Source: Oscillospiraceae bacterium (lineage in GTDB: Bacteria > Bacillota > Clostridia > Oscillospirales > JAAYXM01). From it: 41,039 bases of DNA. Where the stretch lies: positions 1 to 41,039 of the forward strand of contig JAFSEA010000050.1 in NCBI GenBank assembly GCA_017435965.1, given 5' to 3'. Positions 3,660 to 38,848 of this stretch are shown here, in pieces. A program made the translations under genes and the position numbers. The notes below the pieces were generated by a model. That model made no database searches. It was not told the DNA's origin and saw nothing but the letters and a program-made list of their open reading frames with translations. The stretch's first letter is position 1. Each line of letters starts with the position of its first letter.

Positions 3660-3663
3660 GATT

Positions 3664-4239: not shown

Positions 4240-4262
4240 TAAGAATTTTATACAAAAAATAT

Positions 4263-4305
4263 GCACCTCCAAAGGCTGTTGCTTTTGGAGGTGCGAGTTT
4301 TTGTA
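4263..4305. terminator. Bidirectional terminator between iorB and the AI-2E family gene
   Basis: The arms at 4263-4276 and 4281-4294 make a 14-bp stem with a 4-nt loop. A T-run follows on the + strand (4298-4302) and another lies on the - strand side, so it can end both convergent transcripts. Confidence 0.9.
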
Positions 4306-4324
4306 TTTGTGAAATATAGCTTAA

Positions 4325-15683: not shown

Positions 15684-15751
15684 TTTAAAAACCTCGATGA
15701 TAAAATTTCTAATAAAAATCACAAGAATATTGTATTATTCCGATAATAAAT

Positions 15752-17629: not shown

Positions 17630-17646
17630 TATAAGGAGTGATTAGT

Positions 17647-17997: not shown

Positions 17998-18004
17998 ATA
18001 GCTT

Positions 18005-18784
18005 ATGAATTACACGCTTATAACGGGTGCCTGCGTAAATACAGGCGTTGCAATAGTCAAAAAGTTTCTTTCGGAGGGTAAAAACGTAGTATTTACGGGA
18101 AGAAATGAGAATAAAGTTCTTGAAGCTGAAAGAAAATACAAAAGTGAGTTTTGTGATGCGGATGTAATCGGATATACCATTGATTCGCTTCTTGACAGGA
18201 AAACAGTTGATGAGAAAGCGATTGAAGAACTGTTCGATTTTCTTGATGAAAAAGATATTTTTATAGATACGCTTGTTCTCAATGCTGCGGATCAGGGGCT
18301 TGATGTTGTTCCTCTCGAAAGTCCTATTGAAGATTTTATGAGGGTAATCAACACCAATATGGTATGGAACTATTGCATCTCGGAATACGCTGTAAAGCGT
18401 ATGAGAGAAAACGGCGGCGGTAACATTGTTTTTGTAAACTCCAATACTGCATATCGTGCAATTCCGGGAAGAGTAGCATATTCTGCATCCAAAAGCGGTC
18501 AGCTCGGAATGATGCGCGCAATGGCACTTGAGTTCGGAAAATATAGCATAAGGGTTAATGCCGTGCTCCCGGGTATGATAAAAACAGACCGGTGGGAGAA
18601 AAATCCCGAATTCTATGAAAATGTGCCATCACGTTTCACACCCATCGGAGATGTTGCCGTTGGCGAAGACATTGCCGATGCTGTGTGGTATTTTGCCGCA
18701 AATGCACGGAATACAACAGGTGCAGAACTTGTAGTGGATGGAGGAAACACAATCCAGCTTTATCCTGTTTGTGATAACAGGTAA
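18005..18784 (+). CDS. Short-chain dehydrogenase/reductase (SDR)
   Basis: A 259-residue classical SDR. The cofactor loop is TGACVNTGVA (7-16), the NAAD segment at 93-96 replaces the usual NNAG, Ser146 precedes the YSASK catalytic pair (Y159, K163), and a C-terminal TGAELVVDGGNTI is typical. The ribosome site is weak (GGGGGAA within the cupin stop region). It is last gene of the MBL/dehydratase/cupin set and probably oxidises or reduces a sugar or sugar acid (gluconate- or uronate-type dehydrogenases belong to this family). Confidence 0.9.
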   Translation: MNYTLITGACVNTGVAIVKKFLSEGKNVVFTGRNENKVLEAERKYKSEFCDADVIGYTIDSLLDRKTVDEKAIEELFDFLDEKDIFIDTLVLNAADQGLDVVPLESPIEDFMRVINTNMVWNYCISEYAVKRMRENGGGNIVFVNSNTAYRAIPGRVAYSASKSGQLGMMRAMALEFGKYSIRVNAVLPGMIKTDRWEKNPEFYENVPSRFTPIGDVAVGEDIADAVWYFAANARNTTGAELVVDGGNTIQLYPVCDNR

Positions 18785-19736: not shown

Positions 19737-21608
19737 TTATTCCGACAAAAAGACAGTTGCAATTCTCTTGTGAAAATGAACACCGTGAGAAGGGGTTTTA
19801 TTATCTTCCGCAAGACAATAAAGTCGTTCTGTCTCAAGCTCCTCAATTGAATCAATAACGCCATTTACATAAGCTTTGAGTTTTCTTATGGCGGTTTCTA
19901 TGCGTGCTTTTGTTCCGCCTGTGCGAAGGTCGTATACATCAAAACCGAAGGCTTTGTTTTCGGAGTGCCAGAGTGTTTCAAATTTAGAGCACATATCGTG
20001 ATAGTCAATGAGCAAAGTTTCAAGCTCGGATATAAGTTCTTTAAGGATGAAAATGTCGTGTTTGTCATAAGCTTGTTTGATTTCAATTCCAATCTCCGCT
20101 TTTTCATAAAGCACCTTCGTGAGGCTCAAGTAATAGTCAAATAAATTTTCAAGCCCCGGCTCGGAAATATGCTTTAGTTTCTCGTGTTTTTTCTTATAGT
20201 ATTCTTTGAGTTCCAGCCCTTCAAAGTTTTTATCAAATATGCCGCAAAGTATATCCTGATAGACAATTTCACGTGAAACGGCAGACAAATTCCCGGGAAT
20301 AGTGGGGATGTTGTCAATTTCAAGAGCAAGGAAATTCTCGAGATTATGCCCCATACATAGCCTGAATTGCTTTTTTAAGTGTTCTGTGTCCACTTTTTCG
20401 TAGTAATTGTATTCCGCAAAGAGCTGTATACCTCCGAGCATAGTGAGAATGTTGACTTCGGCACCATCATCACCCCACATAGTTGTTATTATGCTGTCGA
20501 TGTTCTTTTCATGGCATACATCGAGGGCGGTAAGGGTTGTGTCGAAGGTTTTTGTATACCCGGGACCCATTCCGAGCCATGTCCAGGCACCACCGACAAA
20601 TATAGTGTTTCTCTGCATTCGGAAATGCTCGTCTATCATAAAACGATACATTTTTTTATCGGTATTGTAATAGTCCCAATAAGCAAGTGTTATATCCTCG
20701 GGGATTTTTTTGTGTAAATCTCCGGGGATTTTTGCGTCTAGGTCATAATACCAGCCTTTCTCGGAACCCAGTCGGAAGAACATATCACTCCACATAATGG
20801 GTGCAAGGTCATTCTTTTTTGATATTTCGCAAACATGGGTGAGGTGTCTTGATAAAAGGTCGAATCTGTTGCTGTCACCGTGAAGGTCGTAATATTTTCC
20901 GCGCCCCACGAAGTGAGCTTCGTCCATACCGATAAGTATCTTGTTTGATGAATATGAGGCTTTGACAGCTTTAAACATTGCCTCAATGAACTTGTAAGTC
21001 TCTTCTTCATCAATGAGAAGAACATCCTCGTCATCACGCATATTTTCAGCATAACTCCAACGCAGAGTATTCCTCAGATGTGCAAGTGTCTGAATACAGG
21101 GAATCATTTCTATTCCGAGTGCCTGTGCCGCTTTGTCCATCTCCTGTATTTCTGCTGTGGTATACCGTCCGCGCATATATCCGAAATACGGATACTCTTC
21201 GATTTCGTATGTATCTTCTGTATAAAGCATAAGCGTATTCATACCTGCCGATGCCATTTTGCCCATAATTTTAATAACCGTTTCGACTTTCAAAACTGCA
21301 TTCCGAGAGCAATCGAGCATTGCGCCACACATTTTCATTTTCGGAGTTTCAACTTTGTGGATATCGGTTACACCATCTTCCAACATACCTACGAGCATTG
21401 AAACTGCGCGGAAAAAATCATTTTTCTCAGCCCAGGAAATCACATATTCTCCATCTTTTCCATCAATTGAAAGTCCGGTTGATATTCTTTTGGTAGTAAT
21501 TTTTATGCCATCGGATTCACCGAATTTAAAACCACGTGTTTTGGCAACTATTGAAAGTCCGTCCAAAAGCCCCTCTGTTTCTTCTCTCTTAAAACATAGT
21601 GAAATCAT
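19737..21608 (-). CDS. GH20-family beta-N-acetylhexosaminidase-like glycoside hydrolase
   Basis: A 623-residue glycosidase without a signal peptide. Residues 90-430 form the barrel: the MKMCGAMLDCSRNAVLK entry strand, MNTLMLYTEDTYEIEEYPYFG, the Q-T-L-A-H-L block near 173-178, and the catalytic Asp-Glu pair D229-E230 in LIGMDEAH, the GH20 hallmark (substrate-assisted acetamido mechanism). A short N-terminal alpha/beta domain precedes it and a helical domain follows. It would release terminal GlcNAc/GalNAc from imported oligosaccharides. It follows the AraC gene by 5 nt, so the two are one operon. The 3' end borders the IS relic. Confidence 0.87.
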   Translation of the reverse strand: MISLCFKREETEGLLDGLSIVAKTRGFKFGESDGIKITTKRISTGLSIDGKDGEYVISWAEKNDFFRAVSMLVGMLEDGVTDIHKVETPKMKMCGAMLDCSRNAVLKVETVIKIMGKMASAGMNTLMLYTEDTYEIEEYPYFGYMRGRYTTAEIQEMDKAAQALGIEMIPCIQTLAHLRNTLRWSYAENMRDDEDVLLIDEEETYKFIEAMFKAVKASYSSNKILIGMDEAHFVGRGKYYDLHGDSNRFDLLSRHLTHVCEISKKNDLAPIMWSDMFFRLGSEKGWYYDLDAKIPGDLHKKIPEDITLAYWDYYNTDKKMYRFMIDEHFRMQRNTIFVGGAWTWLGMGPGYTKTFDTTLTALDVCHEKNIDSIITTMWGDDGAEVNILTMLGGIQLFAEYNYYEKVDTEHLKKQFRLCMGHNLENFLALEIDNIPTIPGNLSAVSREIVYQDILCGIFDKNFEGLELKEYYKKKHEKLKHISEPGLENLFDYYLSLTKVLYEKAEIGIEIKQAYDKHDIFILKELISELETLLIDYHDMCSKFETLWHSENKAFGFDVYDLRTGGTKARIETAIRKLKAYVNGVIDSIEELETERLYCLAEDNKTPSHGVHFHKRIATVFLSE

Positions 21609-21613
21609 TGCGT

Positions 21614-22423
21614 TTAAATCCTTTCTTTGTTTTGATATTTGAGGAATTCCGTCGGTGACATTCCCGTATGTTTTTTAAATACCCTTGAAAAATAATACGG
21701 GTTACAGAATCCGACTTCAATTGCTGTTTGTGAAGCAGAAACAAGTCCGCTTCGTAAAAGTTCTTTTGCACGCTCAACTTTCTTTGTGTTGATGTAATCA
21801 ATGGGGGATTGACCGAAGTGTTGCCTGAATATCGTGCGAAAATATGCCTCTCCGATACCGCACATGGAAGCAAGCTTTTTAATTTTCATATCACGCTCAA
21901 AGTAGTTTTCCTGAATATAGACAATTGCGGGTTTGAGAATATTTACCTTTTTTGAAGGAATGTATTCACGATCGGAGCCGGAAAGCAACAATGCGAGTAT
22001 TTCGTAAAAATCACGCAGATTTTTTATCTGATAAAGATGAGGCTTGTGCAGAAGCCTGTTTTCGATTTTGGCAAATAATGCGATTATTTTACTGTTGTCG
22101 GAAACTTCAAAGGGGAAAAGTGTATTTGCCTCGGATAATGCCTGAAACTCTATAATCAGACACTCTCCCTGACGGAGACAGGAACGGCTGTAGGTAGAGC
22201 TGCGTGGAAGAATGATAATGTGATTTTTGTCTATTGTGTATGAACCGGAAGGCGTCTCGTATTGAGTACAGCCTTCCGCTTTGATAACTAATGCCCATGT
22301 TCTTCTTGAGTCATTGACAAGTCTGTTTTTTGAAACCGAGCCTTCTCCGTTTATACGTATTGCTGAATATATATCAGTGATCTTAATGTTTGTCAAAGTA
22401 TCGTTTTTTATATCCATCAGCAT
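21614..22423 (-). CDS. AraC-family transcriptional regulator
   Basis: A 269-residue protein: N-terminal cupin-type sensing domain (SGSYTIDKNHIIILPRSSTY) and C-terminal AraC DNA-binding domain (MKIKKLASMCGIGEAYFRTI and ASQTAIEVGFCNPYYFSRVF, then TGMSPTEFLKY). The ATG at 22423 has GGAGGTG 6 nt upstream; an upstream ATG at 22450 has no ribosome site. It leads the GH20 operon and is divergent from the operon containing the giant lyase, so it probably controls both. Confidence 0.9.
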   Translation of the reverse strand: MLMDIKNDTLTNIKITDIYSAIRINGEGSVSKNRLVNDSRRTWALVIKAEGCTQYETPSGSYTIDKNHIIILPRSSTYSRSCLRQGECLIIEFQALSEANTLFPFEVSDNSKIIALFAKIENRLLHKPHLYQIKNLRDFYEILALLLSGSDREYIPSKKVNILKPAIVYIQENYFERDMKIKKLASMCGIGEAYFRTIFRQHFGQSPIDYINTKKVERAKELLRSGLVSASQTAIEVGFCNPYYFSRVFKKHTGMSPTEFLKYQNKERI

Positions 22424-22475
22424 TTCACACCTCCGTTTTGTTTTATACATAATTGCGAAAAAAACGCTTTATTTC

Positions 22476-22504
22476 AGTATAAGGAATTTAAATTTGAAAA
22501 TCAA
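22476..22504 (-). promoter_or_regulatory. Promoter of the AraC-GH20 operon
   Basis: On the - strand TTGATT (22499-22504), 17-bp spacer, TATACT (22476-22481), continuing GAAA. Confidence 0.78.
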
Positions 22505-22555
22505 GACGGGCATTAAAAAAACTGTAGCGAATAAGACAAATCCACGAATTGGACA

Positions 22556-22584
22556 TTTACATTGAAACTTGAAGTGTCTATACT
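22556..22584 (+). promoter_or_regulatory. Promoter of the phosphatase-lyase-lipoprotein operon
   Basis: TTTACA (22556-22561), 17-bp spacer, TATACT (22579-22584), continuing GAAA, the mirror image of the - strand promoter about 100 bp away. Confidence 0.75.
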
Positions 22585-22635
22585 GAAATTAACAGTTGAT
22601 TACACTTTCTTAATATTTGTTTTATGGAGGCCGCA

Positions 22636-23400
22636 ATGAGGCTTAGAGTTATGACCTATAACATATGGGGCGGACAAAACTATGAAGAATACCTTCGTGG
22701 AGTTCCGGCGGAAGCGTGCAGCAGAGATGTTTCTCGTGTTGCAACGGTGATAAAAGAAAGCTCTGCAGACATTGTATCTCTCAATGAAATTTTCAACTGC
22801 GAGGCTTATGGCAATCAGGTTGAGCAGATTGCACGTCTTGCAGGATTTGAATATTATCATTTTGCTCCTGCACTTTTAAGAACCTATGTGGGAGGTTATT
22901 ACGGCAATGCAATTCTATCGAAATATCCGATCGTGAAAATGTCGGAGAAAAAAATCCCTGCAGAAGAAGGTGTAAGACTTTCTGAGCAACGTGGTGTTTT
23001 TTGTGCGACGATTGATTGTAACGGGAAACTGATTGATGTGATTATAAGTCATTTCGGTCTTGTACCTGAGGAAAAGGTCAGAGCTGTTGATGCAGTTTTG
23101 GATTTCAAAAGCAATTCCGATAACAAATGCATATTTATGGGGGATACAAACAGCGTTCGTGAGTCTGAACACATAGAAAAGCTATGCAAAGCTTTTTACA
23201 TAACAAATAACGCAACAGGCGAAATTACAACATGGCCGGTTGAATATGTGCCACCGGAACGTCAGACCTTTTCGTCTCCGCTCTGGAATCGCCAGATAGA
23301 TTTTATTTTAGCCGGCGATGAAATAAGTGTAAACAAAACCGAAGCGATTCATTCTCTTGCTTCAGATCATAAAGCCCTTTTTTCAGATATTGAAATTTAA
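22636..23400 (+). CDS. Endonuclease/exonuclease/phosphatase (EEP) superfamily protein
   Basis: A 254-residue EEP-fold metal-dependent phosphodiesterase/phosphatase. Motifs in order: MTYNIWGG with Asn, IVSLNEIF with the metal-binding Glu, VIISHFGL with His, FMGDTNSV (Asp/Asn) and the C-terminal SDHKALF. No signal peptide. Start at ATG 22636, 5 nt after GGAGG; the earlier ATG at 22624 precedes that site. It is the first gene of the operon that continues into the giant lyase (24 nt gap). In a glycan locus it may hydrolyse a phosphodiester or sugar phosphate; the substrate cannot be told. Confidence 0.87.
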   Translation: MRLRVMTYNIWGGQNYEEYLRGVPAEACSRDVSRVATVIKESSADIVSLNEIFNCEAYGNQVEQIARLAGFEYYHFAPALLRTYVGGYYGNAILSKYPIVKMSEKKIPAEEGVRLSEQRGVFCATIDCNGKLIDVIISHFGLVPEEKVRAVDAVLDFKSNSDNKCIFMGDTNSVRESEHIEKLCKAFYITNNATGEITTWPVEYVPPERQTFSSPLWNRQIDFILAGDEISVNKTEAIHSLASDHKALFSDIEI

Positions 23401-23424
23401 TTTAAATTATGAGGAGGATTTACG

Positions 23425-26400
23425 ATGAGATTGAAAAAGATTGTCAGCACTATGCTTGTGATTTGTATGATTGCATCACTTGCTCCGAATATGGTGCTCG
23501 CTAACGAACCTGAAACGGGAAATGTCGATTCCATAGTCGTGGATTTCACAAAAACAACCCTTACAACAAATACAAGTGGCAACACATCTTATGACGGATT
23601 GACAACGCCGGGGTACGAAGTGATTACTGATAAGAGCACGACCAAAGGCGTGCGGGTAAACTTTGTCGGAAACGGACTTAATACTGTTCACGATCAGGGG
23701 TATAGTCCTCTGTCTTCAAAAAAGACGTGGCCGGCAGAAAAAGATAAGAATACCGTGAAAAATCTGATGCTCACAATAAACATTGAAGCAGAGACCGCAG
23801 GTTATTATGTTCCGGAACTTGTTTACGGCACTCATAACGCCTGCGGAGATTTTGCTATATACATAAACGGTCAGTATGCAGGAGAAATAACCGATGCATG
23901 GGATGCTTCCGTGAGCGCAAAAACGAATATGCCTCCTGTGACGCTCAATACAGTTTATCTGAAAGCAGGTAAAAATGAAATAAGCTTTAAGTGCTTATCG
24001 CACAGAGGAACAAGAGTGCAGTCCTATCTCATTCTTAACAAACTCACTTTTCTTTATTGCGGAGATTCGCTTTCTCCCATTGAGTATTCTCATAATCTCC
24101 CGAAGATAATGTATATAGGGCAGACCGCAAGTTTCGCGGTTTCTGCAAAAATGAGTGATGGCAGTACAAAGATTTTCGGTAAATACAATGAAGATGGTTC
24201 GGAAGTAACAAATCCGTTTATATCTGTATCGGAAACCTCGGAAATTGCAGAAATATCCGATGTCGTACAGGATAACGATGCCACAACCGGAATTTTTTCT
24301 GCTGTGAGTGAAGGAACAGCGAATATAAACGTAGTTGTGAATATTGGCGGAGAGTTGCTTGAAAGAACAATCAATGTCAGAATACGTGCAGAGCAACCTC
24401 TTGAATATGTCACGCTTGATTTCGATAAAGACAGCATTCCTGAATCTCGCACGGCTATCGCTTCAATCGGAGTCTTTGACGATGAAGATGGTGTGTTTAC
24501 ATCGGAGTATGATACTTTATTTGAAAGTCTTGACCCGGAAATTGCAACCGTAGCATCGGGAGAAAACAAAAACGAAGCTGTAATAACCGGTGTGTCGAAG
24601 GGCACGGCAAGGATCAAGGTAACCGCAACTGCAAAAGGTAAAACGGTTGGAGTAACGAAAGAAAAACTCATAACTGTTACAGATGCCCCGGTCATAAAAG
24701 AACTTGCTCTTACCACAAATAAAGAAACCTATAAAGTCGGCGATGAAGGAACATTTGAGCTTTCCGGAACAATGTCCGATGGAGTTTCTGCCACCGAAGA
24801 AGAACTTGCAAAAGTAAGTCTCACATATGAGAACGATAACGAAGGTGTTATAGCTCTCAATGCCGATGAAAAGAGATTTACGGCTCTTGCTCAGGGTGAT
24901 GCGGAAATTAGTGCTATCGCAGAAGTTGGAGGAAGAAGGATTTTTGCAAGACGCATTGTAAAAGTTGTTGCAGAAGGCGAACCGATAGTGGCAAATTTCG
25001 CAAAAACAGTTGTGGGAGACGGAAATGTGCTTACAGGTGCTACCACAGACGGTTTTAAGATAATAGAAGAGAAAAGTTCAACAAGAGGTGCGAGAGTTGC
25101 ACTTGAAGGTATGGGACTTCAGATAAACCATTGGATTTCTCCGGCATCTGCAGGTCGTACATGGCCGGCTTATAAAGATCAGAATCTGATGTTCACAATA
25201 AGCGTTGATTGCGAAAAAGCAGGATACTATTCTCCTGAACTCATTTATGAAGCATATAACAAAAGCGGTGCATTTACAATATATGTAAATGATCAATTTG
25301 CAGGCGAAGTGAATGCATATCTCGCAGGTCAGACAAAGGGAATTCAACGTACCGCAACGCTCAATACAATTTATCTTGATTACGGTACAAACGAAATAAG
25401 CTTCAGGCTGACGAAGTCATATCCACGAGAGGACAGCGGAAAATATGACGGTGTATGGTTTATTCTTGATAAGCTCACACTCTCACCTTGCGGAGAAACT
25501 CTTTTGCCGAAGATGTTTTCCCACAATCTTCCTGAGAGAATATGCAAAGGTCAGACGGTTGATTTTGCTGTTTCGACTGTAATGAGCGATGGTTCAACAA
25601 AGATTTTCGGTAAGTATAATGAAGACGGCACGGAAATCACCAACATACCCATAACTCTTTCCGTAACCTCTGAAATCGGGGAGATAACAAATTGGGTGCA
25701 GACCGCAACCGGCGTAACCGGTAGCTTTTACGTCGGTAACGCAGGAGATGCAGAAATCACCGCAACAGTAAACGTTGATGGAAATACATTTGAAGACACA
25801 TTGGAAATCAAAGTGCTTGATGCCGAGCTTCAGACAACACGCCCCGAGATTTCACATACGGTGTTCAAGGATGATATTATAGAACTTGAAACAGTCAACA
25901 CGCTCACAAACGGAGAAGCCTGGGATATCCCTACATCATATACCGTTTTTACATCGGGCAATCAGGAAATTGCGAAAATAGAAGGAAACACGCTTACTGC
26001 ATCAGATGTCGGTACTGTTACAATCACCGCAAAAACAACTCTTGCAGGAGTTACAAAAGAAGGTTCTGTTGATATAACAATCCTTGATGAGGATGTGAAA
26101 ACTCTTGATATCACGGCAGGTGGAAGTTTTCATATTCGCCTTACGGATATCGAAGGTGACACAGTTCCTATGTACGTTAAGGGAATAACCAATAAGGGTG
26201 CAGAGGTTGAGTTTGATAAACACAATGTGCAGATAACATATGAAGCACTCACACCTGAATTTGCAACGATAGATGATGAGGGAATCATAACACCTGTTGC
26301 ACCGGGAGAAGCGGGATTTCGAGTAACCGTTCTGCATCGCGGAAGGGAAATAACCTCAGAGGTAATACTTTCTGTTGCAAAAGGAAAGTCTCACTCCACC

Positions 26401-29400
26401 TATTACACCAAAGAGAAAAAAGCAAATGCACTTGAAAATATTTCAAAATATTCCTGGGCAAGGTCAACGGCAAGAGCGACTGTTGCTGCTGCCGATAACT
26501 ATGTGGCGAATCTCGATGTATTGTATAATCTAATTACTTCAAATGAGATTCCGCGTTCGTCAACAGCGGGCGAATATGGAGATCCGGAAATGTATTTTTG
26601 CCGTTATTGCGGATGTGATATCCAAAATAAATACGGAGCATATGCATGGGGAATTAATCCTATTGCCCGTCCTTGGAAGATTCAGTGTCCCGATTGTAAA
26701 CGTGTGTTCCCGTCAAATGATTTTGAAAGCTTTTATGAGCTTGGACTTAACGAATACGGAGAATTCTCACGTGAGCGCGCGCTCATTCAGCATCACAAGA
26801 AGTTTGTTTGCAAAAACGGAGAAAATTGTAGCTGTGATGCACCCGATATGAGCAAGCAAACAAATTCCGACGGCACATTAAATAAAGAATTTTATAATTT
26901 CTACGGATATGGAAAAGAAGGCGGATATCTCTATAATGAACTTTATAAGGATGCGGCAACTTCCAAAACCGTAAACGGTGGAAGGGGAATCATAGCTGAA
27001 AACGGTGAGGATGTAAGCTTCTGGGGTGTTGATGACAGCCTGGGTTACCTCACAGGCTATAGATACAAAGATTCTAACGGAAATATCAAAGCTTATGAGC
27101 GCCATGGATATATTGCTGTATACGCTCATTATGGACTCTTCCGAAAGGCAACAAACGGCGGTGGTGTAATCGCAGATGCAATTTCCACTTGCTTCCAGGC
27201 TTACCTTTATTCAGGAGAGAAAAAGTACGGAAGGGTTGCGGCGATACTTGTAGACAGAATTGCGGATTTCTATCCCGATTATGATCTCACCGTGTTCTAT
27301 AAGGACAGACGAATTTTTGTAAACTCCGATGGAGGTAACAAAAATGGTAAAATTCTCGGCAATATATGGGAAACAGATACGGCAAAGTATTTCTGTGAAG
27401 CTTATGATGCGGTGTATGAACTTTACGATGATCCTGAAGTTTTGAATTTCATCCATAACAAGGGTAAAGTTCTGAAGTTCCGTCACGCAAAGGAAACCCC
27501 GTCACAGATCAGGACGAGCATTGAAGACGGAATACTTCGCACCGCCTTCGAGGGTCTTTCGGATGGTTCTATTGCAGGTAACTTTGGTTACGACCAGAGA
27601 ACAAATGCAATGGCTGCGGTGGTTCTTGATTCACAGCCTGAAACCAAAGAATGGCTCGAATTTATGATGGCTCCCGGCTGGAAGAGAATGGCGGCAGGCT
27701 CAACGGGAGGAAGCATAACGGAAAATCTCTATGAAAAGATTGACTGGGACGGTCAGGGAGATGAAGCATCAAGCTATAATGCAAACTGGCTTGATTATTT
27801 GATTGATGCATCCCTTATTCTTGCGGATTATGAAAACAACGAAGGAATCAACCTCTTTGAAAATCCGAAGTTTGTCAAAATGTTCTACGGTATGCTCAAT
27901 GTCACAATGACTGACTATGGCGTGCAGTCGGGTGATAGTGGCTCTTTTGCACACAATGGTCTCTGGCTTTCCAAAAAGCAGGCAATGGCGGCGTACAGGT
28001 ATATCAAAGATGATGTATTTCTTCAGGCACTCTATCTTATAAACGGATATTCATCAGATAGTATTTATGAGAATATCTTCACAAAGAATCCCGAGCAGAT
28101 TAAAGAAGATATGGAGCGCGTAATAAAAGAAAAGGGAACACTCTCCCTTGAATCCGAGATGCTTTCCGGCTTTGGATTTACAGCCCTTCGTGATGGCAAG
28201 CGTTATTCAGAGGAAGATGACACACGCCACGGCTTCTGGATGTTCTACGGTCTTTCCGGTGCAGGTCACGGACATCGTGATTCCCTGAACATCGGTATGG
28301 ATGCATTTGGTCTTAATTTCCTTCCTGATTTTGGTTATCCAACAACAGCAGATAGCCAGCCTCGTGTTCTTCAATGGGAAACACGAACACTTTCACACAA
28401 TACCGTTATGGTAGATGAAAGAATGCAGGATGTAACCCAAAAGAGAGGTAAAAGCCTCCATTTCGATGCTACGGAAAACGTTCAGCTTATGGATGTTGAG
28501 GCTCCCGATGCGTACCGTGGCAGCGGTGTTTCGGAATATCGCCGTTCTGTTATTATGATAAAGATAGACGAAGATAATTTCTATGGTCTTGATTTGTTCA
28601 GAGTAAAGGGCGGCTGGAGTCACGAATTCAGTCTGCACGCTCAGTCCGATGAAATCGGCTTCACAAGCGGTGTTGATTTTGTGCCTCAGGTTGACGAGAA
28701 TGGCAACTACAAGGGCAATTATGCGGGCGTAGATTTAGACAGCGATCCGAATAGTGACAGCTTTGCAGGACCTGATCCGAATTCACCGATTCAGGGTAGC
28801 TATGAAACAGTATATCCACGCGGATACACCTGGCTTGAAAATGTTGACCGTGGAACGCCGACATCCGATAAAATAGAGCTTGATTTTAACATCAAGGACT
28901 TCAGAAAGGTGCTTGCAAATTCAAACGGACTTCATCTCCGTGCAACAATGCTCGGAATTGAGTCCGACAGTCAGGTTAATACTGCCACCGGTTACGTGCC
29001 GAACAAGCCGGACAATAAATCTATACCCGGAATCCGATTTGCATTTGTAAAGCGCAAGAGTGAAGATAAGAAAACTCAACTCGACACACTCTTTACAACT
29101 GTCTATGAGCCTTACCGGGACATGAGAACACTCTCTGATATATCAGAGCTTCCGATGACTGTGACTTCCGGAACGGAAAACACAGACGACATCACTCGTT
29201 GCGTAAAGGTTACTCACGCAGACGGAGAACGGGTGGACTACATCTTCTATGCAACCAATAACAAGGTCACCTATACGGTAACCGATGGCGAAGATGCATT
29301 TACCTTCCGGGGATTTGTCGGTGTGATAACGTGCAGAAACGGTGCTGATATTTATAAATATCTCTGTGACGGTGACATTCTTGATGAAGAGGTTTCCGGA

Positions 29401-30684
29401 GGGGATGCAATAAATGCACGTGTTACATATTTCACGGAATCTTTGGGATTTGAAAATGAAATTCATATAAAACCCCTTTATCCGGTGGATGAGAATGTAA
29501 TACCAACGCTTACGGGACGTTATGTGTATGTTGAAAACGGAAATGTCCGCAACGCAGCATACAAAATAGAAAGTGCAAAGGCAAATGGTGACGAAATTAT
29601 TTTGAATATCGGAGACGCAACTCTTATAACTGCACAGCTTGACCCATATGCAGAGGATGCAGTCGGCAATTACAAGTACAACATAGCAAAACGTGCAGAC
29701 TGTGTGATACCGCTTTCGTGGAGTGAAAATAACGCACCGTGGGTAGAAGAAGTTTCCGACCAGTCAGTATCGTCGGGAAGTATATTGAACTTTGCAATCA
29801 AGGGCGAAAGTCCGATTGAAAATATGGGCACAACGCTTTCTCTTCGTACCGCACCGCGTGGTGCAAGCCTGGATAGTGAAACAGGTGTGTTCACGTGGAA
29901 GCCTTCATCTTCTCAGGTTGGAACTCACGTAATTACCGTAGCTGTAACAGATGAGCAAGGAAGACAGTCTGTAGAAAGTTTTGAAATTGATGTTTACGGT
30001 TCAACAACGGGAGGCGGAACATCCGGCGGTGGCACAACAACTCCGACCATACCTGCAACCCCCTCGGATGAAAAGGACGACACTAACGATTCCACAACCG
30101 ATGTAGGGGAGGATATCATCCTCCCGCCTGCAGAGTCAAATATCCGCTTCATGGACCTCGGTGCACACGTCTGGGCAGTTGATGCAATAAATGCATTGGC
30201 TGACAAGGGAATAATCAAGGGAACAAGCAAAACAACCTTCTCTCCGGGAAACAATATAACGCGTGCAGACTTTGCAATTCTTCTTGTTCGTGCATTCGGT
30301 CTTTCAAGTGAAAACACAGAAAACTTTGCAGACGTTCTTCCTACCGATTACTTTGCTGACGAGCTTGCAATCGCACGAAATTCAGGCATAATTAACGGCA
30401 TCGGAGATAACAAGTTCTCACCACGAAACACAATCACCCGTCAGGATATGATGGTAATTGTTTATCGTTCCCTCAAATCTGTAGGGGCGATTCACGAATC
30501 GCCCGTAAACACGCCGGAATACCCGGATTATGCTGATGTTTCCGACTACGCAAAAGAAGCAGTCGCTGCCCTCATCGGAGCAGGAATCGTAAACGGAAAG
30601 AACGGCAAAATCGCTCCCGATGACAATGCAACCCGTGCAGAAGTTGCCGTACTTATTAAGCGTGTATTGGATTCAATAAAGTAA
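23425..30684 (+). CDS. Giant secreted SLH-anchored heparinase II/III-like protein
   Basis: A 2419-residue surface protein. Residues 1-26 are a signal peptide (cleavage after VLA). Two homologous beta-rich, probably carbohydrate-binding modules start near 37 and 520 (AGYYVPELVYG, FAIYINGQYAGEI, LNTVYLKAGKNEISFK). Bacterial Ig-like repeats follow each. From about 989 a helical region begins, with a probable zinc site C1059, C1062, C1088, C1091, leading to a heparinase II/III-type catalytic region with GAGHGHRDS (H1615, H1617) and SHNT (1657-1660). A putative Ig domain is at about 2102-2190, then a Gly/Thr/Pro linker and three SLH domains (about 2240-2295, 2299-2352, 2366-2419) for cell-wall attachment. 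It should depolymerise an acidic polysaccharide by beta-elimination; the glycan is unknown. Confidence 0.88.
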   Translation: MRLKKIVSTMLVICMIASLAPNMVLANEPETGNVDSIVVDFTKTTLTTNTSGNTSYDGLTTPGYEVITDKSTTKGVRVNFVGNGLNTVHDQGYSPLSSKKTWPAEKDKNTVKNLMLTINIEAETAGYYVPELVYGTHNACGDFAIYINGQYAGEITDAWDASVSAKTNMPPVTLNTVYLKAGKNEISFKCLSHRGTRVQSYLILNKLTFLYCGDSLSPIEYSHNLPKIMYIGQTASFAVSAKMSDGSTKIFGKYNEDGSEVTNPFISVSETSEIAEISDVVQDNDATTGIFSAVSEGTANINVVVNIGGELLERTINVRIRAEQPLEYVTLDFDKDSIPESRTAIASIGVFDDEDGVFTSEYDTLFESLDPEIATVASGENKNEAVITGVSKGTARIKVTATAKGKTVGVTKEKLITVTDAPVIKELALTTNKETYKVGDEGTFELSGTMSDGVSATEEELAKVSLTYENDNEGVIALNADEKRFTALAQGDAEISAIAEVGGRRIFARRIVKVVAEGEPIVANFAKTVVGDGNVLTGATTDGFKIIEEKSSTRGARVALEGMGLQINHWISPASAGRTWPAYKDQNLMFTISVDCEKAGYYSPELIYEAYNKSGAFTIYVNDQFAGEVNAYLAGQTKGIQRTATLNTIYLDYGTNEISFRLTKSYPREDSGKYDGVWFILDKLTLSPCGETLLPKMFSHNLPERICKGQTVDFAVSTVMSDGSTKIFGKYNEDGTEITNIPITLSVTSEIGEITNWVQTATGVTGSFYVGNAGDAEITATVNVDGNTFEDTLEIKVLDAELQTTRPEISHTVFKDDIIELETVNTLTNGEAWDIPTSYTVFTSGNQEIAKIEGNTLTASDVGTVTITAKTTLAGVTKEGSVDITILDEDVKTLDITAGGSFHIRLTDIEGDTVPMYVKGITNKGAEVEFDKHNVQITYEALTPEFATIDDEGIITPVAPGEAGFRVTVLHRGREITSEVILSVAKGKSHSTYYTKEKKANALENISKYSWARSTARATVAAADNYVANLDVLYNLITSNEIPRSSTAGEYGDPEMYFCRYCGCDIQNKYGAYAWGINPIARPWKIQCPDCKRVFPSNDFESFYELGLNEYGEFSRERALIQHHKKFVCKNGENCSCDAPDMSKQTNSDGTLNKEFYNFYGYGKEGGYLYNELYKDAATSKTVNGGRGIIAENGEDVSFWGVDDSLGYLTGYRYKDSNGNIKAYERHGYIAVYAHYGLFRKATNGGGVIADAISTCFQAYLYSGEKKYGRVAAILVDRIADFYPDYDLTVFYKDRRIFVNSDGGNKNGKILGNIWETDTAKYFCEAYDAVYELYDDPEVLNFIHNKGKVLKFRHAKETPSQIRTSIEDGILRTAFEGLSDGSIAGNFGYDQRTNAMAAVVLDSQPETKEWLEFMMAPGWKRMAAGSTGGSITENLYEKIDWDGQGDEASSYNANWLDYLIDASLILADYENNEGINLFENPKFVKMFYGMLNVTMTDYGVQSGDSGSFAHNGLWLSKKQAMAAYRYIKDDVFLQALYLINGYSSDSIYENIFTKNPEQIKEDMERVIKEKGTLSLESEMLSGFGFTALRDGKRYSEEDDTRHGFWMFYGLSGAGHGHRDSLNIGMDAFGLNFLPDFGYPTTADSQPRVLQWETRTLSHNTVMVDERMQDVTQKRGKSLHFDATENVQLMDVEAPDAYRGSGVSEYRRSVIMIKIDEDNFYGLDLFRVKGGWSHEFSLHAQSDEIGFTSGVDFVPQVDENGNYKGNYAGVDLDSDPNSDSFAGPDPNSPIQGSYETVYPRGYTWLENVDRGTPTSDKIELDFNIKDFRKVLANSNGLHLRATMLGIESDSQVNTATGYVPNKPDNKSIPGIRFAFVKRKSEDKKTQLDTLFTTVYEPYRDMRTLSDISELPMTVTSGTENTDDITRCVKVTHADGERVDYIFYATNNKVTYTVTDGEDAFTFRGFVGVITCRNGADIYKYLCDGDILDEEVSGGDAINARVTYFTESLGFENEIHIKPLYPVDENVIPTLTGRYVYVENGNVRNAAYKIESAKANGDEIILNIGDATLITAQLDPYAEDAVGNYKYNIAKRADCVIPLSWSENNAPWVEEVSDQSVSSGSILNFAIKGESPIENMGTTLSLRTAPRGASLDSETGVFTWKPSSSQVGTHVITVAVTDEQGRQSVESFEIDVYGSTTGGGTSGGGTTTPTIPATPSDEKDDTNDSTTDVGEDIILPPAESNIRFMDLGAHVWAVDAINALADKGIIKGTSKTTFSPGNNITRADFAILLVRAFGLSSENTENFADVLPTDYFADELAIARNSGIINGIGDNKFSPRNTITRQDMMVIVYRSLKSVGAIHESPVNTPEYPDYADVSDYAKEAVAALIGAGIVNGKNGKIAPDDNATRAEVAVLIKRVLDSIK
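30485..30504. repeat. Palindromic repeat inserted in frame between SLH2 and SLH3
   Basis: GGGCGATTC-AC-GAATCGCCC forms 9-bp perfect arms with a 2-nt centre and is preceded by GTAG. It encodes GAIHESPV, a stretch foreign to SLH domains. Short repeats of the type GTAGGGGCGATTC..GAATCGCCC are dispersed in many bacterial genomes; identity to such a family is from memory. Confidence 0.7.
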
Positions 30685-30728
30685 ATAACCTTTGTTAAGG
30701 TTGAAATTTCTAAAAGGAGGATATAAAA

Positions 30729-32282
30729 ATGAAGAAAAAACTCTTGGCGTTTTCTCTCGCAACACTTATGCTGCTTTCGCTTGCCGGTTGTGGTGGCGAA
30801 AAGGTAGAAAATCAAACTGCAGGCGAACCGGAAGAGGGAAAAGCACTCCCCGCCGATGCAGAGCTTAACGTGGTAACGGTAAGCCATTCAAGCTGGCCAT
30901 ATAACGAAAATTGGGAGGTGTGTAAAGAAATCCGTGAGGGTGTTGGCGGAAAGTTGACCGTAAATGCATATCCGGAATCAGACTTTTCCACAAAATTTTC
31001 TTTGCTTATGGCAGACACGGATAATCTTCCCGATGTTATAGCATTCCAGAATATTTCTCTTGCTACCAGATACTTTGAACAGGGAGCATTCCTTGCGTTT
31101 GATGACAATCTTGAGCATTTGCCCAACTACGAAAAGTTTTGGAATTCCGTTTCTCCGGAGGAAAAGGCAAATACATATGATATACGCCGTGCGGCAGACG
31201 GAAAGATATATGCCGCACCGCCCATTGGCAATGAGAGGCAATTAAATGTTATGGCATGGTTGTACCGAAAGGATATCTTTGATAAACATAACCTCAAAGT
31301 TCCGGAAACAACCGATGAACTTTTGAAAGTGTGTCGCAAACTGAAAAGCATTTATCCCGACAGCTATCCGTTGGGACTTCGAGCTCCTTTTTCACGCATA
31401 AACACGATAGGCTCTCAATGGAAACCATATTTCCATTATTCGGTATATTATGATTTCAACAACGGAACATGGGAGTATGGTGCCTGTGAAGATACGATGC
31501 TTGAAATAGTGACGTTCTTGAGAAAATGCTATGAATACGAGCTTGTTCCTCTTAACTATTTTACCATCAACACGTCAGAATGGGAAAATCTTATAGCGAA
31601 TGATCGCTCTTTCATAACCTGCGATTACCAGACAAGAATAGATACATTCAATTCAAAAGCGCGTGAACACAACCCTGCTTTCAATCTTACTGCAATGAAG
31701 CCACCCAAGGCGGACTCTGCGACAGGCGGAGCACTTCTTGCAAAAGAAAACTTCGATAATCAGGGGATGGCTGCTTGCAACACCGGAAAAAATGCATCGC
31801 AGATAAATGCATTCAGATACATTGACTGGTTCTATTCAGATGAGGGTAGCGCGGCAGTAAGCTGGGGAAAAGAAGGAGTTACTTACGAAGAAGTTGACGG
31901 AAAGAGAAGATTCATTGCAAATGACGGTGCAGAAGTAAGAACCCGTTACGGCTTCACAACAATCGGCACATATCTTCGCCTTGACCCTGCGGCTGGTGAC
32001 GCATTGGTATCGGAAGAGCAGGCATCGACAACCGATATGCTTCTTGCATCCCAAACAGAGCATCTCAATCCTGTCCGATGGTTAAAGCCAAGTGAAGAGC
32101 AAGCAGCAAAAATCACGGAATTAAGCGGATACATACTTCCTTATGTTGAAGAAAACCTGAGCAAGTTCTTAAATGGAACAAAGCCATTATCGGAGTGGGA
32201 TGAATTCAGGGAAGGACTCAATGAACTTCCGATAGATGAACTTCTTGCAGTATATGACGATATGTATCAGCAATACTCATAA
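30729..32282 (+). CDS. ABC-transporter extracellular solute-binding lipoprotein
   Basis: A 517-residue family-1-type solute-binding protein. The N-terminus is a lipoprotein signal with lipobox LAGC (Cys21). DTDNLPDVIAFQNI, AAPPIGNERQLNVMAWLYRK and the RYIDWFYSDEGSAAVSWGKE region near the C-terminus match the carbohydrate-binding SBP group (LplA/YtcQ type) common in Clostridia and Paenibacilli. An AAAGGAGG site precedes the start. It sits between the lyase and the 902-residue secreted protein, so it probably captures the lyase products. No permease or ATPase gene is present in the window. Confidence 0.9.
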   Translation: MKKKLLAFSLATLMLLSLAGCGGEKVENQTAGEPEEGKALPADAELNVVTVSHSSWPYNENWEVCKEIREGVGGKLTVNAYPESDFSTKFSLLMADTDNLPDVIAFQNISLATRYFEQGAFLAFDDNLEHLPNYEKFWNSVSPEEKANTYDIRRAADGKIYAAPPIGNERQLNVMAWLYRKDIFDKHNLKVPETTDELLKVCRKLKSIYPDSYPLGLRAPFSRINTIGSQWKPYFHYSVYYDFNNGTWEYGACEDTMLEIVTFLRKCYEYELVPLNYFTINTSEWENLIANDRSFITCDYQTRIDTFNSKAREHNPAFNLTAMKPPKADSATGGALLAKENFDNQGMAACNTGKNASQINAFRYIDWFYSDEGSAAVSWGKEGVTYEEVDGKRRFIANDGAEVRTRYGFTTIGTYLRLDPAAGDALVSEEQASTTDMLLASQTEHLNPVRWLKPSEEQAAKITELSGYILPYVEENLSKFLNGTKPLSEWDEFREGLNELPIDELLAVYDDMYQQYS

Positions 32283-32321
32283 GGATATTTCGTCAGAACA
32301 AAAAATCAGGAGGAATACAAA

Positions 32322-35030
32322 ATGAAAAAACTAATAAGCGTTTTCCTTATCGTCTGTTTGGTGGCAACACTTCTGCCGTCAATTGCTTTTGCAACTGAAG
32401 CTGATATAGTAAGTGAAATAGTAATAGATTTCACACAAACAACACTCACTACCAACACAAGTGGAAATACGTCTTACGAAGGATTAACAACACCCGGTTA
32501 TGAGATAAATCCTGATAAGAGCACAACAAGGGGAGTTCGTGTGAACTTTATCGGCAACGGGCTTAACACTTGTCACGATCAGGGATATTCCCCTTTGTCC
32601 TCAAAGAAAACCTGGCCGGGAGAAAAGGATAAAGACACAGTGAAGAACCTGATGCTTACAATAAGTGTTGATGTTGAAGCTTCCGGCTATTATGCTCCCG
32701 AAATTATATATGGTACACACAATGCCTGCGGAGATTTTGTAATATACATAAATGGACAGTATGCAGGTGAAATAACCGATGCATGGAATGCTGATGTGAG
32801 TGCAAAAACAAATATGCCACCCGTGAAGCTCAATACCGTTTATCTCAAAGAAGGCAAAAACGAAGTTAGTTTCAAGTGTGTATTACATCGTGGAACGAGA
32901 ACACAATCTTACCTTCTTCTCAATAAACTCGCATTCACTCCTTGCAAAGAAGCATTTGTCCCGGTTACTTTTGTTTATGATTTCCCGGAAAAAGTAGTTG
33001 CAGGTGAGCCTGCAGAGTTTACTGTTTCAGCAAATTTCGATGAAAGTCAGACAAAGTTTTCCGGCACATATAACGAAGATGGCTCAACTATGGATAAGAA
33101 TCTTACCGTAGCATCGGAAAACGGCACTTTTGAGATAACAGAGCAGAGTGAAAATGCTCTGAAAGGAACATTCACCGCTACTTCCGGCGGTGCAGTAGCA
33201 ATAACAGCTACGGCAAATATCAACGGGAAAACATATTCTGAAACAATTGAAGCCACAGCTACTGCTCCCATAGTAGCAACCTTTTCAAAAACAGCAGGGA
33301 AGTCAGGAAACTACACTTTTGCAGACCTTGCAACAAATGGCTATACAGTAGATACGTCCAAAAGTTGTGAAACGGCAAAAGTTCAAAATAACGGAGATTA
33401 CATACAGGTAGAGATGTATTGTATCGGAAGCTCCGGAACTCCTTGGCCGACAACGGCTGCGGGAGCATATGGTTTGCTGTTTACAATAAATGTAACGGCA
33501 CCGACTGCAGGATATTACAGCACAAATTTTGAATATGGTGCGTGGAACTCAAGTGCAGACTTTACAATGTACATAAATGGTGTTGCAGCAGGCGTTGTTG
33601 ACGGATACATATGGGGCAATAATGCAACAGCAGACCGTGAAAAAGCATTTAACACAGTTTACCTCAATGAGGGAACAAACGAAGTAAGCTTCAGATTGAC
33701 AAAAACATATAAGCGAACAGAAGCAGACGGAACAGATGCTTTGAGATACAACGGATATTGGTTCCGTCCGAGAAAGCTCACTTTCACCCCTGTTGATGTA
33801 GCTCCCGCTCCTGTCGGATTCACATCCACACTTACAGAGACAAAAGTAGGTGAGTCGGTTGAGTTTACAGTAAAGCCTGTTATGAGCGATGGTTCGGCTA
33901 TGTATTTCGGCATATATGATGATGCAGGTACAAAAATTACCGACAATCCGATAACCCTTACCACAACATCGGGAACAATAACAAATCTCATAAGAACAAC
34001 CGATGGCGTAAACGGCACATTTACCGCAACGGAAGCAGGAAATGCGACAATAAGTGCATCAACAACCATCAACGGAACTTCATTCACAGATAGTTTTGAT
34101 GTAACCGTAACATCTGACGAAGATGAGGTTGTAACTCTTCCGACAACAATCACAATGTCTGTATCCACAGATTCCGCTTTTGCAGGAAATCTCACGGTAA
34201 ACGGAGAAGTTCAGGAAAGTGCAATAAGAACATATAGCGTCGGTACAGGCGATACCGTGATTGTAAAGGCAGAGGACATTGAAGGCAAAATCTTCCGTGG
34301 ATGGCTTCGCGGCGGTGAAAACGGTAAGGTAGTATGCCTTGATTCGGAGTATACCTTCACGGCGGCAACAAATGTTGCACTCTTTGCAAAGTATACAGAT
34401 GCTCCCGAAGAAGAGACTGTTTCAAACGAATATTACGACTGGAACGGCGAATTCCTCGCGTATACAGAGCCTGACCGTGCTACTCTTTCAAAATACGGCT
34501 TCAGCTTTAAGGAGTGGCTTGAATCAGCAGGTGGAATTATCACAAGATACGTAGCTGATTATACGGCTGCAAACACTTATACGATAACAAAGCCCGATAG
34601 CACAAAGCTTCAGAACGTTGCTCACGAGACCGAAATAACTTTGACGAACCCGACAGCAGTTTCGTGGTATGTAAATGATGTGCTTGCCGCTTATGGCACA
34701 AGCTACAGCTTCTATGCAACGGAGGATGCCATTGTAACGATTGACAACGAAGTGCAGACGGGGCCGATAGTAAAGCTTAATAATCCCAATGGCAATACAT
34801 ATATTCTTGAATACAACGTAAACGGTGCAGATGTAATTGAGAAGGGTATTATTATCGGAAACGGCGAGCCTACAGTCACAAGTTGCTTCTATAAGGTTAT
34901 TTCACAAAGAAGTGATGCTTTCGGCAAGCTTATGGCAAACAACGACACATCATATACAACCGTTCGCGGTTATGTGATTTATAATGACAACGGCACTTAC
35001 AGAGTGGTATATGCCGATATAGCTGAATAA
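32322..35030 (+). CDS. Secreted multi-module protein sharing the lyase's N-terminal modules
   Basis: A 902-residue protein with a signal peptide (cleavage after AFA, residue 24). Its first module (about 28-205) matches the first module of the giant lyase at roughly four of five residues by hand alignment. A second related module begins near 316. Ig-like repeats, a TIVKAEDIEGKIFRGWLRGG-type segment and a C-terminal domain of about 200 residues (YDWNGEFLAYTEPD to VVYADIAE) follow. There is no catalytic motif I recognise, and no SLH, LPXTG or transmembrane anchor. It is likely a released or non-covalently held glycan-binding partner of the lyase. AGGAGG precedes the start; a terminator follows. 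Confidence 0.83.
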   Translation: MKKLISVFLIVCLVATLLPSIAFATEADIVSEIVIDFTQTTLTTNTSGNTSYEGLTTPGYEINPDKSTTRGVRVNFIGNGLNTCHDQGYSPLSSKKTWPGEKDKDTVKNLMLTISVDVEASGYYAPEIIYGTHNACGDFVIYINGQYAGEITDAWNADVSAKTNMPPVKLNTVYLKEGKNEVSFKCVLHRGTRTQSYLLLNKLAFTPCKEAFVPVTFVYDFPEKVVAGEPAEFTVSANFDESQTKFSGTYNEDGSTMDKNLTVASENGTFEITEQSENALKGTFTATSGGAVAITATANINGKTYSETIEATATAPIVATFSKTAGKSGNYTFADLATNGYTVDTSKSCETAKVQNNGDYIQVEMYCIGSSGTPWPTTAAGAYGLLFTINVTAPTAGYYSTNFEYGAWNSSADFTMYINGVAAGVVDGYIWGNNATADREKAFNTVYLNEGTNEVSFRLTKTYKRTEADGTDALRYNGYWFRPRKLTFTPVDVAPAPVGFTSTLTETKVGESVEFTVKPVMSDGSAMYFGIYDDAGTKITDNPITLTTTSGTITNLIRTTDGVNGTFTATEAGNATISASTTINGTSFTDSFDVTVTSDEDEVVTLPTTITMSVSTDSAFAGNLTVNGEVQESAIRTYSVGTGDTVIVKAEDIEGKIFRGWLRGGENGKVVCLDSEYTFTAATNVALFAKYTDAPEEETVSNEYYDWNGEFLAYTEPDRATLSKYGFSFKEWLESAGGIITRYVADYTAANTYTITKPDSTKLQNVAHETEITLTNPTAVSWYVNDVLAAYGTSYSFYATEDAIVTIDNEVQTGPIVKLNNPNGNTYILEYNVNGADVIEKGIIIGNGEPTVTSCFYKVISQRSDAFGKLMANNDTSYTTVRGYVIYNDNGTYRVVYADIAE

Positions 35031-35041
35031 AGCAGAAAAAA

Positions 35042-35082
35042 GCGGCGGGGCTTGCGGTTCTACCGCGCCTCGCCGCAGTTTT
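35042..35082 (+). terminator. Terminator of the lyase operon
   Basis: GCGGCGGGGC (35042-35051) pairs with GCCTCGCCGC (35067-35076; one G-U), enclosing a smaller GCGG/CCGC hairpin, followed by AGTTTTATA. Confidence 0.85.
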
Positions 35083-35106
35083 ATAAAATTATATGGGTGA
35101 ATTACT

Positions 35107-36057
35107 ATGATAAAAGCAGGACTTATCGGATGCGGAAAGATAAGTGCAAACCACATATCGGCATTTGAAGAACTTCAGGATGCGAAAATAGTTGCAGTGT
35201 GCGATTTGATTGAAGAAAACCTTTCCGTAGCAATTCAAAAAACCGGTGCAAAAGCGTATAAAGATTATAGGGAGATGCTTTCAAAGGAAAAGCTTGACCT
35301 TGCGGTAATAACATTGCCACATTCTCTTCATTGCGAGGCTACTTGTGTTGCAGCGGAGTTCGGGGTCAATGTTTTCCTCGAAAAACCGATGGGCATAAGC
35401 GTCTCTGAATGTGAAAAGATGATTGAAATTTGCAGGAGAAATAATGTAATGCTGTGGGTTGGAGACCCTCAACGTTACCACGGCGGAAACATTGTTGCAA
35501 AAGAACTTATAAACTCAGGTGAGTACGGCTCTCTTATCGCAATTTCCGAAACTCGTTGTACAAACTATTTTTCGGAAAGCCGTCCGAAATGGTTTTTAAA
35601 TAAGAAAACAAGTGGCGGAGGGATTCTTATGAATCTCGGTGCCCATACGATAGACAGAATTAAATATCTTACCGATAGCGAAATTTGCGAAGTGCACGGG
35701 AAAATACATATCCGAGACGGATATGATGTGGAGGACACGGCACAGGTTTTTGGTGTTACCGAAAACGGAGTTTCCGTCACAATGAACCTGTCCGGAAATG
35801 CCGAAAGCGGACATTACGCAACATATCTTTATCTCACGGGCGGTGAAATTCGCATAACATCATACTGCTCACGGGTTTCTGCTTGCAAGGCGGACGGAGT
35901 ATTTGAGGATTTTGACGTGCCGCAGACTCCGGTTATGAAAGCACAGATTGCAGATGTAATCCGCACTTTGAAATCCGGAGAAAAACCGATTGTCAGCGGA
36001 GAATACGGAAAAGAAATCATCCGTGTAATCGAGAGCATTTATGATATGAATGCATAA
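35107..36057 (+). CDS. Gfo/Idh/MocA-family oxidoreductase
   Basis: A 316-residue NAD(P)-dependent sugar oxidoreductase. The Rossmann loop is GLIGCGKISANH at the N-terminus, the conserved EKPMG motif is near residue 95, and GGILMNLGAHTID supplies the His/Asp of the active site. Such enzymes oxidise or epimerise sugars, sugar acids or inositols, and some act as redox-neutral glycosidases. It opens a second run of catabolic genes after the lyase operon's terminator. The start codon has GGGTGAA upstream. Confidence 0.93.
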   Translation: MIKAGLIGCGKISANHISAFEELQDAKIVAVCDLIEENLSVAIQKTGAKAYKDYREMLSKEKLDLAVITLPHSLHCEATCVAAEFGVNVFLEKPMGISVSECEKMIEICRRNNVMLWVGDPQRYHGGNIVAKELINSGEYGSLIAISETRCTNYFSESRPKWFLNKKTSGGGILMNLGAHTIDRIKYLTDSEICEVHGKIHIRDGYDVEDTAQVFGVTENGVSVTMNLSGNAESGHYATYLYLTGGEIRITSYCSRVSACKADGVFEDFDVPQTPVMKAQIADVIRTLKSGEKPIVSGEYGKEIIRVIESIYDMNA

Positions 36058-36099
36058 AATTTGAAGATTTCAGTCTGATACAATTGGAGGTGTCAGTTC

Positions 36100-36771
36100 T
36101 TGACAGAAATATATTTTGTCCGTCATGCGGAATCCACCGGTAATATGACGGGGCGCGCCTATGGTTGGTATGACGGACTTGTTTCACTGCATGGATACGA
36201 GCAAATCAAATGTCTTGAAAAAAGATTTGAAGATATAGAAGTCGATGCCATATATTCAAGTGATCTCATAAGAGCTGTGAAAACTGCCGAGGCGATATAT
36301 AAGCCGAAAGGACTTGTTTTGAATAAAGATGTCGCGCTTCGTGAAATAAATCTTGGTGCTTGGGAAAATAAAAAGTGGGAAGAACTTCCGTCTGCTTTTC
36401 CGGAGGAACATAGACTCTGGACAAGCGACCCTTTGAATTTCAAAGTTGAAGGAAGTGAGACATATGACGAAGTATATACACGTATGAGAAATACGGTTGA
36501 ACGGATTGTCGGAGAGAATGAAGGGAAAACTGTTGTGATTGTAGGACATGGGGTTGCACTTCGTATGCTTATTTATGGCGTTTTGAATAATGGTGATCTT
36601 TCGGGCATTGTCGATTTCGGTTGGGGAGACAACACAAGTGTCAGTCACTTTGTGGCAAACGGTGGCGAGTTGACCCTTGATTTTATAAATGACAATTCCC
36701 ACCTTAAGGATTTGCCGGGCTTTAAGAAAAGTACGGTATGGGGAAGCACAAGAGAGTGCGTTCTGCTTTAG
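36100..36771 (+). CDS. Histidine phosphatase (phosphoglycerate mutase-like) family protein, TTG start
   Basis: A 223-residue branch-1 histidine phosphatase. FVRHAES carries the nucleophilic His9, and VIVGHGVALR carries the second His; the Glu proton donor is in REINLGAWE. The start is TTG at 36100, 9 nt after TTGGAGG, with no ATG in the correct place. In this sugar-catabolic setting it is more likely a sugar-phosphate or nucleotide phosphatase than a glycolytic mutase (inference). Confidence 0.9.
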   Translation: MTEIYFVRHAESTGNMTGRAYGWYDGLVSLHGYEQIKCLEKRFEDIEVDAIYSSDLIRAVKTAEAIYKPKGLVLNKDVALREINLGAWENKKWEELPSAFPEEHRLWTSDPLNFKVEGSETYDEVYTRMRNTVERIVGENEGKTVVIVGHGVALRMLIYGVLNNGDLSGIVDFGWGDNTSVSHFVANGGELTLDFINDNSHLKDLPGFKKSTVWGSTRECVLL

Positions 36772-36801
36772 ATGAACAAGACAAAACGGAGGTAAATTGA
36801 T

Positions 36802-38844: not shown

Positions 38845-38848
38845 GGTT

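Follow-up and report, generated by a model that had tools for sequence, protein, structure and literature searches.

It is proposed that the open reading frame at 23425-30684 (forward strand) of the window, that is, of the whole 41,039-nucleotide stretch analysed here, encodes a secreted, SLH-anchored heparinase-fold protein; it is probably a lyase of acidic polysaccharides that is under AraC control, is paired with a matched companion and belongs to a repertoire of about 59 members. The frame is single and intact, has an ATG start and encodes 2,419 residues exactly where the original prediction placed it; 59 paralogues covering the same region in the same genome put it far beyond chance. The predicted order of domains (signal peptide, module, Ig repeats, module, Ig repeats, helical plus zinc region, heparinase domain, Ig and three SLH domains) is supported by Pfam, AF2 models and fold search, and structure prediction by domain, one of the checks suggested at the time, gives CBM6/35/36-like folds for the modules and a heparinase II/III fold for the catalytic region.

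The putative signal peptide (residues ~1-26, 23425-23502) is read from the sequence, without a signal-peptide predictor. It is followed by module 1, which extends to about residue 213 (23503-24063). The AF2 model of residues 27-325 (23503-24399; pLDDT 73) consists of a CBM6/35/36-like beta-sandwich and then an Ig-like domain (Z ~10); the sandwich matches CBM6, CBM35, CBM36 and MiXBM structures at Z 9-12.8, with MiXBM (7ehg) at 12.8, CBM6 at 10.5 and CBM35 at about 10. Going by its name, we take 7ehg to be probably the xanthan-binding module of a xanthanase. Pfam gives no CBM match in the N-terminal modules. Residues 27-325 align with a second copy at ~519-797 (217 bits, 48% identity), confirming that the modules are true duplicates; module 2 and the Ig-like domain after it occupy 24979-25815. 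Between the two lie Ig-like repeats (residues ~214-515, 24064-24969), the first with an Ig-like fold and another with a Big_2 match at 363-406 under the cut-off, and after them come Ig-like (Big-like) domains (residues ~798-984, 25816-26376; PF22359, 39 bits over two stretches, the best at 936-969). Downstream of the catalytic region are a He_PIG Ig-like domain (residues 2107-2190, 29743-29994; 42.5 bits, cut-off 24) and three SLH stretches (residues 2242-2413, 30148-30663; Pfam 108.7 bits, 1.3e-31) that provide the cell-wall anchor. PDB sequence matches of the lyase are to the SLH domain of the S-layer protein Sap and, weakly, to the alginate lyase AlgL17. A single match to the pyruvyl transferase family PF04230 in the genome (143.5 bits) may act as CsaB for the wall ligand.

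The functional unit exceeds this frame and spans at least 21614-39745. The original prediction of a complete surface-tethered depolymerase in one chain draws good support from the domains, the fold and the conservation of the active site, but the protein is not self-contained, as its loci include an AraC regulator and often a companion. In the window the AraC-family regulator (21614-22450, reverse strand) is divergent from the operon, 173 bp from its first gene, which encodes an endonuclease/exonuclease/phosphatase-family protein (22624-23400); a GH20-family hexosaminidase (19737-21608, reverse) is directly behind the regulator gene. The lyase is followed on the forward strand by the extracellular solute-binding protein of an ABC transporter (30729-32282; SBP_bac_8), so that regulator, binding protein and multimodular SLH enzyme lie together at 21614-32282. 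Beyond the companion described below, the operon encodes a GFO/IDH/MocA oxidoreductase (35107-36057), a histidine-phosphatase family protein (36100-36771), a GH3-family glycosidase (36802-38844) and an esterase with a weak match to glucuronoyl esterase (38849-39745; GCE_fung 28.7 bits, cut-off 27); all these assignments are from Pfam. Two further AraC-family genes of the window, both on the reverse strand, are found at 14856-15722, near enolase-superfamily and SDR genes (16469-18784), and at 40219-40974, beyond the lyase operon.

Enrichment of AraC genes by plain distance is unconvincing, because the 5-kb zones that hold 40 of 83 AraC genes cover up to 40% of the genome. The operon-head test, in which each lyase is followed upstream through same-strand genes, is for that reason the valid one. 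The head was visible in 36 cases, and the next gene was an AraC gene in 28 of these (25 divergent, with 44-227 bp between), against a background of 11% AraC genes among 364 genes in the fetched regions. Same-strand neighbours of the lyases encode solute-binding proteins, GFO_IDH oxidoreductases, glucuronoyl-esterase-like proteins, GH39, GH20 and GH127 enzymes, rhamnosidase, fucosidase and galactarate/altronate dehydratase. The accessory enzymes mostly occur at few loci each, which suggests differing glycans.

The gene at 32322-35030 (forward) encodes a secreted companion that lacks SLH domains and has a conserved C-terminal domain; its first module and module 1 of the lyase share 63% identity. 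Such companions, secreted, devoid of SLH, on the same strand and adjoining or near the lyase, are found in 33 lyase-neighbour pairs and are mostly 500-1,070 aa long where complete. Across loci, many of them have a common C-terminal region of ~280 aa; the most that Pfam detects in it is InlB-like repeats, and these in some members. This region (34122-35030 in the window, 3596-4540 at locus L086) ends like GILFG...GQFTAKP...RGYxIY...VIYSD, and is found again in numerous proteins encoded by the genome, as well as in relatives. The lyase of the own locus is the best N-terminal match for 20 of the 29 companions tested, where random pairing gives 0.87 own matches on average and a maximum of 8 in 20,000 shuffles. 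For the congener G003 the corresponding figure is 17 of 30, a partial replicate given that 25 orthologous lyases are common to both species. From this matching we infer that the companion and the lyase of one locus recognise the same glycan, the main alternative being local gene conversion without functional meaning. In the fuller form of that alternative, the family is an ordinary SLH-anchored lyase family, the companion is functionally unrelated to the lyase, and the module likeness is nothing more than a trace of local gene conversion or duplication; adjoining genes can indeed exchange sequence, 9 of the 29 companions match another lyase better, and some lyase loci show no companion. We nevertheless regard it as unlikely, since companions match their own lyase at the majority of loci that could be tested and again in a second species, different loci have the companion C-terminal domain in common, and shared ligand recognition is the simplest explanation. 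A literature search found no description of the companions as a class of secreted partners.

The catalytic region consists of a helical N-terminal half (26377-28134), with N1386, E1447, Y1451 and D1504, and a beta half (28135-29709), with H1615, H1617, D1635, H1658 and H1679; both are assigned by fold search and residue conservation, together with the AF2 model for the former and PF07940 for the latter. Hepar_II_III_C (PF07940) matches residues 1609-1740 with 44.8 bits against a Pfam gathering cut-off of 24. The AF2 model of residues 985-2095 is of moderate quality (pLDDT 71.5, pTM 0.64) and matches PL17 enzymes at Z 29-32 and the PL40 enzyme Uly1040 at Z 30.0 (rmsd 4.3, 699 residues aligned), with weaker matches to the PL39 enzyme Dp0100 (Z 24.1), dermatan sulfate epimerase (22.7) and PL15, PL12 and PL21 (Z 18-22). 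Fold scores of Z 20-32 with PF07940 above its cut-off indicate the heparinase II/III fold, a toroid plus beta-sheet. Identity across these matches is 11-18%, that is, at most 18% to any characterised lyase. A profile of 57 sequences finds AlgL17 (1.1e-9), PL17 enzymes (~1e-7), Uly1040 (6.6e-7) and Dp0100 (E 2.4e-4) in the PDB, and the NCBIfam oligoalginate lyase equivalog (PL17) scores 16.5 bits against a cut-off of 1400. The claim that the architecture is unmatched by a characterised lyase is correct in that no solved lyase is closely related, but the architecture is not singular, with 59 members here and 1-69 in congeners.

The key residues of Uly1040 have been tested by mutation (PMC12915356), and the whole set is found here as N1386, E1447, Y1451, D1504, H1615 and H1617, with identical E+4-Y, Y+53-D and H-x-H intervals; we mapped them by hand, using the order of the motifs and the distances between them, and the result is in line with the fold match. 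The catalytic Asn, Tyr, Asp, His and His of PL40 are thereby all present at an identity to Uly1040 of 12-16%. The Asn is followed by Phe1387, at a position where a Trp or His helps to neutralise the carboxylate. Residues of the tetrad type found in Dp0100 are also present. The Uly1040-type catalytic residues are kept in 58-59 of the 59 paralogues, and H1658, H1679 and R1706-R1707 are invariant in all 59, as are four cysteines in the helical half (C1059-x2-C1062 ... C1088-x2-C1091; 26599-26697). The part predicted to be a zinc region thus does contain a conserved four-cysteine site, which would probably bind zinc. As the His/Tyr/Asp/metal set occurs here at the intervals seen in Uly1040, the protein is likely a uronate lyase, as judged from sequence and model.

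A complete known pathway for unsaturated uronates was considered and does not emerge from the genome, in which only one or two GH88/GH105 (PF07470) genes stand against 59 putative lyases. This scarcity of enzymes for unsaturated uronates, together with the common fold of human dermatan sulfate epimerase (Z 22.7), could favour a non-lytic enzyme remodelling glycans at the surface, either a uronyl C5-epimerase or some other uronate enzyme with this fold; the clearly higher scores of PL17 and PL40 lyases (Z 29-32) and the complete residue set and spacing of Uly1040 make this improbable, and a lyase is the assignment preferred here.

The window's genome is a fragmented MAG of 2,649,286 bases in 119 contigs, 88% complete. 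A PF07940 search returns 59 matches, all of which align with the lyase catalytic region (two are cut by contig ends); their combined length is 151,428 aa, and the corresponding 454,284 bp make up 17% of the assembly. In 55 of the 59 the open frame measures 2,000-3,300 aa; the remaining four are two complete short copies (1,016 and ~1,240 aa) and the two cut ones. All copies with an intact 3' end have SLH domains, the stand-alone 1,016-aa copy being the one exception. Also encoded in the genome are numerous SLH proteins 300-1,300 aa long and a small number of giants without a heparinase match (e.g. C107 and C38). Among congeners there are 24 copies in G001, 1 in G002, 69 in G003 and 62 in G004, and over the five genomes, with rounded sizes, genome size correlates with copy number (r = 0.98, ~24 kb per copy). 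That G003 and G004 show the same expansion, and G001 a lesser form of it, speaks against an artefact of binning. Two pairs of lyases from the window's genome and G003 (L112/L169 and L118/L187) are 99-100% identical over the compared catalytic region, against an orthologue median of 78%, and may reflect recent horizontal transfer or cross-bin contamination.

Pairwise identity among the paralogues has a median of 41%, and the nearest own paralogue is at most 71% identical. For 25 members the reciprocal-best orthologue in G003 (median 78%) is a nearer relative than any paralogue in the same genome. Recent duplication is accordingly rejected as the source of the copies; the paralogues are old. In G003 the catalytic residues are kept in 65 of 66 (N1386), 67 of 67 (Y1451) and 69 of 69 (H1615) copies covering the site, with H1617 the least fixed (~64 of 69). 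Divergence is graded: identity of this lyase to the others is mostly ~24-38% in the N-terminal part and 37-50% in the catalytic part, and the SLH part has a median of 70% between paralogues. A very large family with its outward N-terminal regions most variable and its SLH anchor conserved might also consist mainly of antigenically varied surface coat or adhesion proteins whose enzymatic activity is of little importance, but adhesion alone gives no reason for the active-site residues to persist in 58-59 of the 59 paralogues, old as these are, and in another species as well, and operons with solute-binding protein, glycosidase and AraC genes also count against this very remote explanation.

Sequences of the catalytic subfamily (E <= 1e-30) are found in 4 of 391 sampled genomes of the class, the window's genome and three from two other bacterial families (G069, G106 and G092). 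Copies in these three are mostly ~1,000-1,900 aa, and of three C-termini read the one that is complete has no SLH, the two others being cut. Other Clostridia show broader heparinase expansions (56 candidates in G327, for example); that these belong to the same subfamily was considered and rejected, since among the loci fetched from eight such genomes 13 matched it weakly or not at all. These genomes (G327, G271, G085, G119, G087, G135, G235 and G181; L217-L229) hold large heparinase-fold sets outside the subfamily, some with proteins of 2,000-3,300 aa, which apparently represent independent expansions. Heparinase-fold expansion is thus not unique as such; among the genomes sampled, the giant SLH-anchored format at this scale is confined to this genus. 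Few bacteria known to us give over a sixth of their genome to a single enzyme family, and a literature search found no account of this lyase family or its expansion. Two species alone encode some 100 different lyases (59 and 69, with 25 in common) in which the active site is constant and the N-terminal binding regions vary. This allows direct tests of how the choice of modules determines the substrate, and of which acidic glycans have a hand in shaping the communities of herbivore hindguts.

For the operation of such a surface lyase system, gene order suggests that the AraC regulator would sense an oligosaccharide and switch on the divergent operon. The exported lyase would dock on the cell wall through its three SLH domains, as expected from the SLH family and consistent with the pyruvyl-transferase gene. 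Its CBM6/35-like modules would hold one particular glycan, which the companion, with the same locus-specific module, may help to capture or present. The heparinase-fold domain would then cleave beside a uronate by beta-elimination: H1615 would be the base, with D1504, H1617 and a metal activating it, Y1451 would serve as the acid, and N1386 would bind the carboxylate. Products may enter through the ABC transporter and be trimmed by the locus enzymes. With about 59 lyases, most differing in their N-terminal binding regions, the bacterium could harvest many acidic glycans. It is conceivable, and we put this forward tentatively, that in a gut Clostridia genus a single unclassified lyase family has been developed into a combinatorial repertoire of ~60-70 surface loci per genome. 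Each locus would comprise an AraC sensor, a giant SLH lyase and, in many cases, a module-sharing companion, the two proteins forming a glycan-capture machine; its targets would be acidic glycans of high variability, for example the capsules of bacteria or the side chains of arabinogalactan.

Several known systems resemble parts of this one. PL17 alginate lyases (Alg17c, 4nei; AlgL17, 9irq) give the best fold score (Z ~31) and the best profile match (1.1e-9), but are 14-18% identical and of single-domain scale (~700 aa). PL40 Uly1040 (PDB 9vtk; PMC12915356) has the same two-part fold and the Asn/Glu/Tyr/Asp/His/His residues with matching spacing; it differs in its Trp after the Asn, where the lyase here has Phe, and is described without a four-cysteine site, CBM or SLH from a marine, mostly Bacteroidota setting. 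The PL39 alginate lyase Dp0100 of Defluviitalea phaphyphila, in the part of its description consulted (PMC9971899), is likewise clostridial and multimodular, with a heparinase fold, CBM35-type modules and a His-Asp-His-metal tetrad; at 1,799 aa it is described there as the largest alginate lyase reported, that part mentions no SLH array, and it concerns one gene as against the family of 59 here. The SLH systems of Paenibacillus sp. JDR-2 (PMC4765114) follow the same working principle, with CBM, catalytic domain and three SLH domains alongside a regulator and transporter; they comprise 29 SLH carbohydrate proteins of diverse functions, in contrast to 59 copies of one lyase family, and secreted companions matched to the lyase at many loci are a feature of the present system. 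Our reading is that these surface lyase systems, each under its own regulation and matched within its locus, form a repertoire for diverse acidic glycans and represent a variant of the known strategy of SLH-anchored depolymerases.
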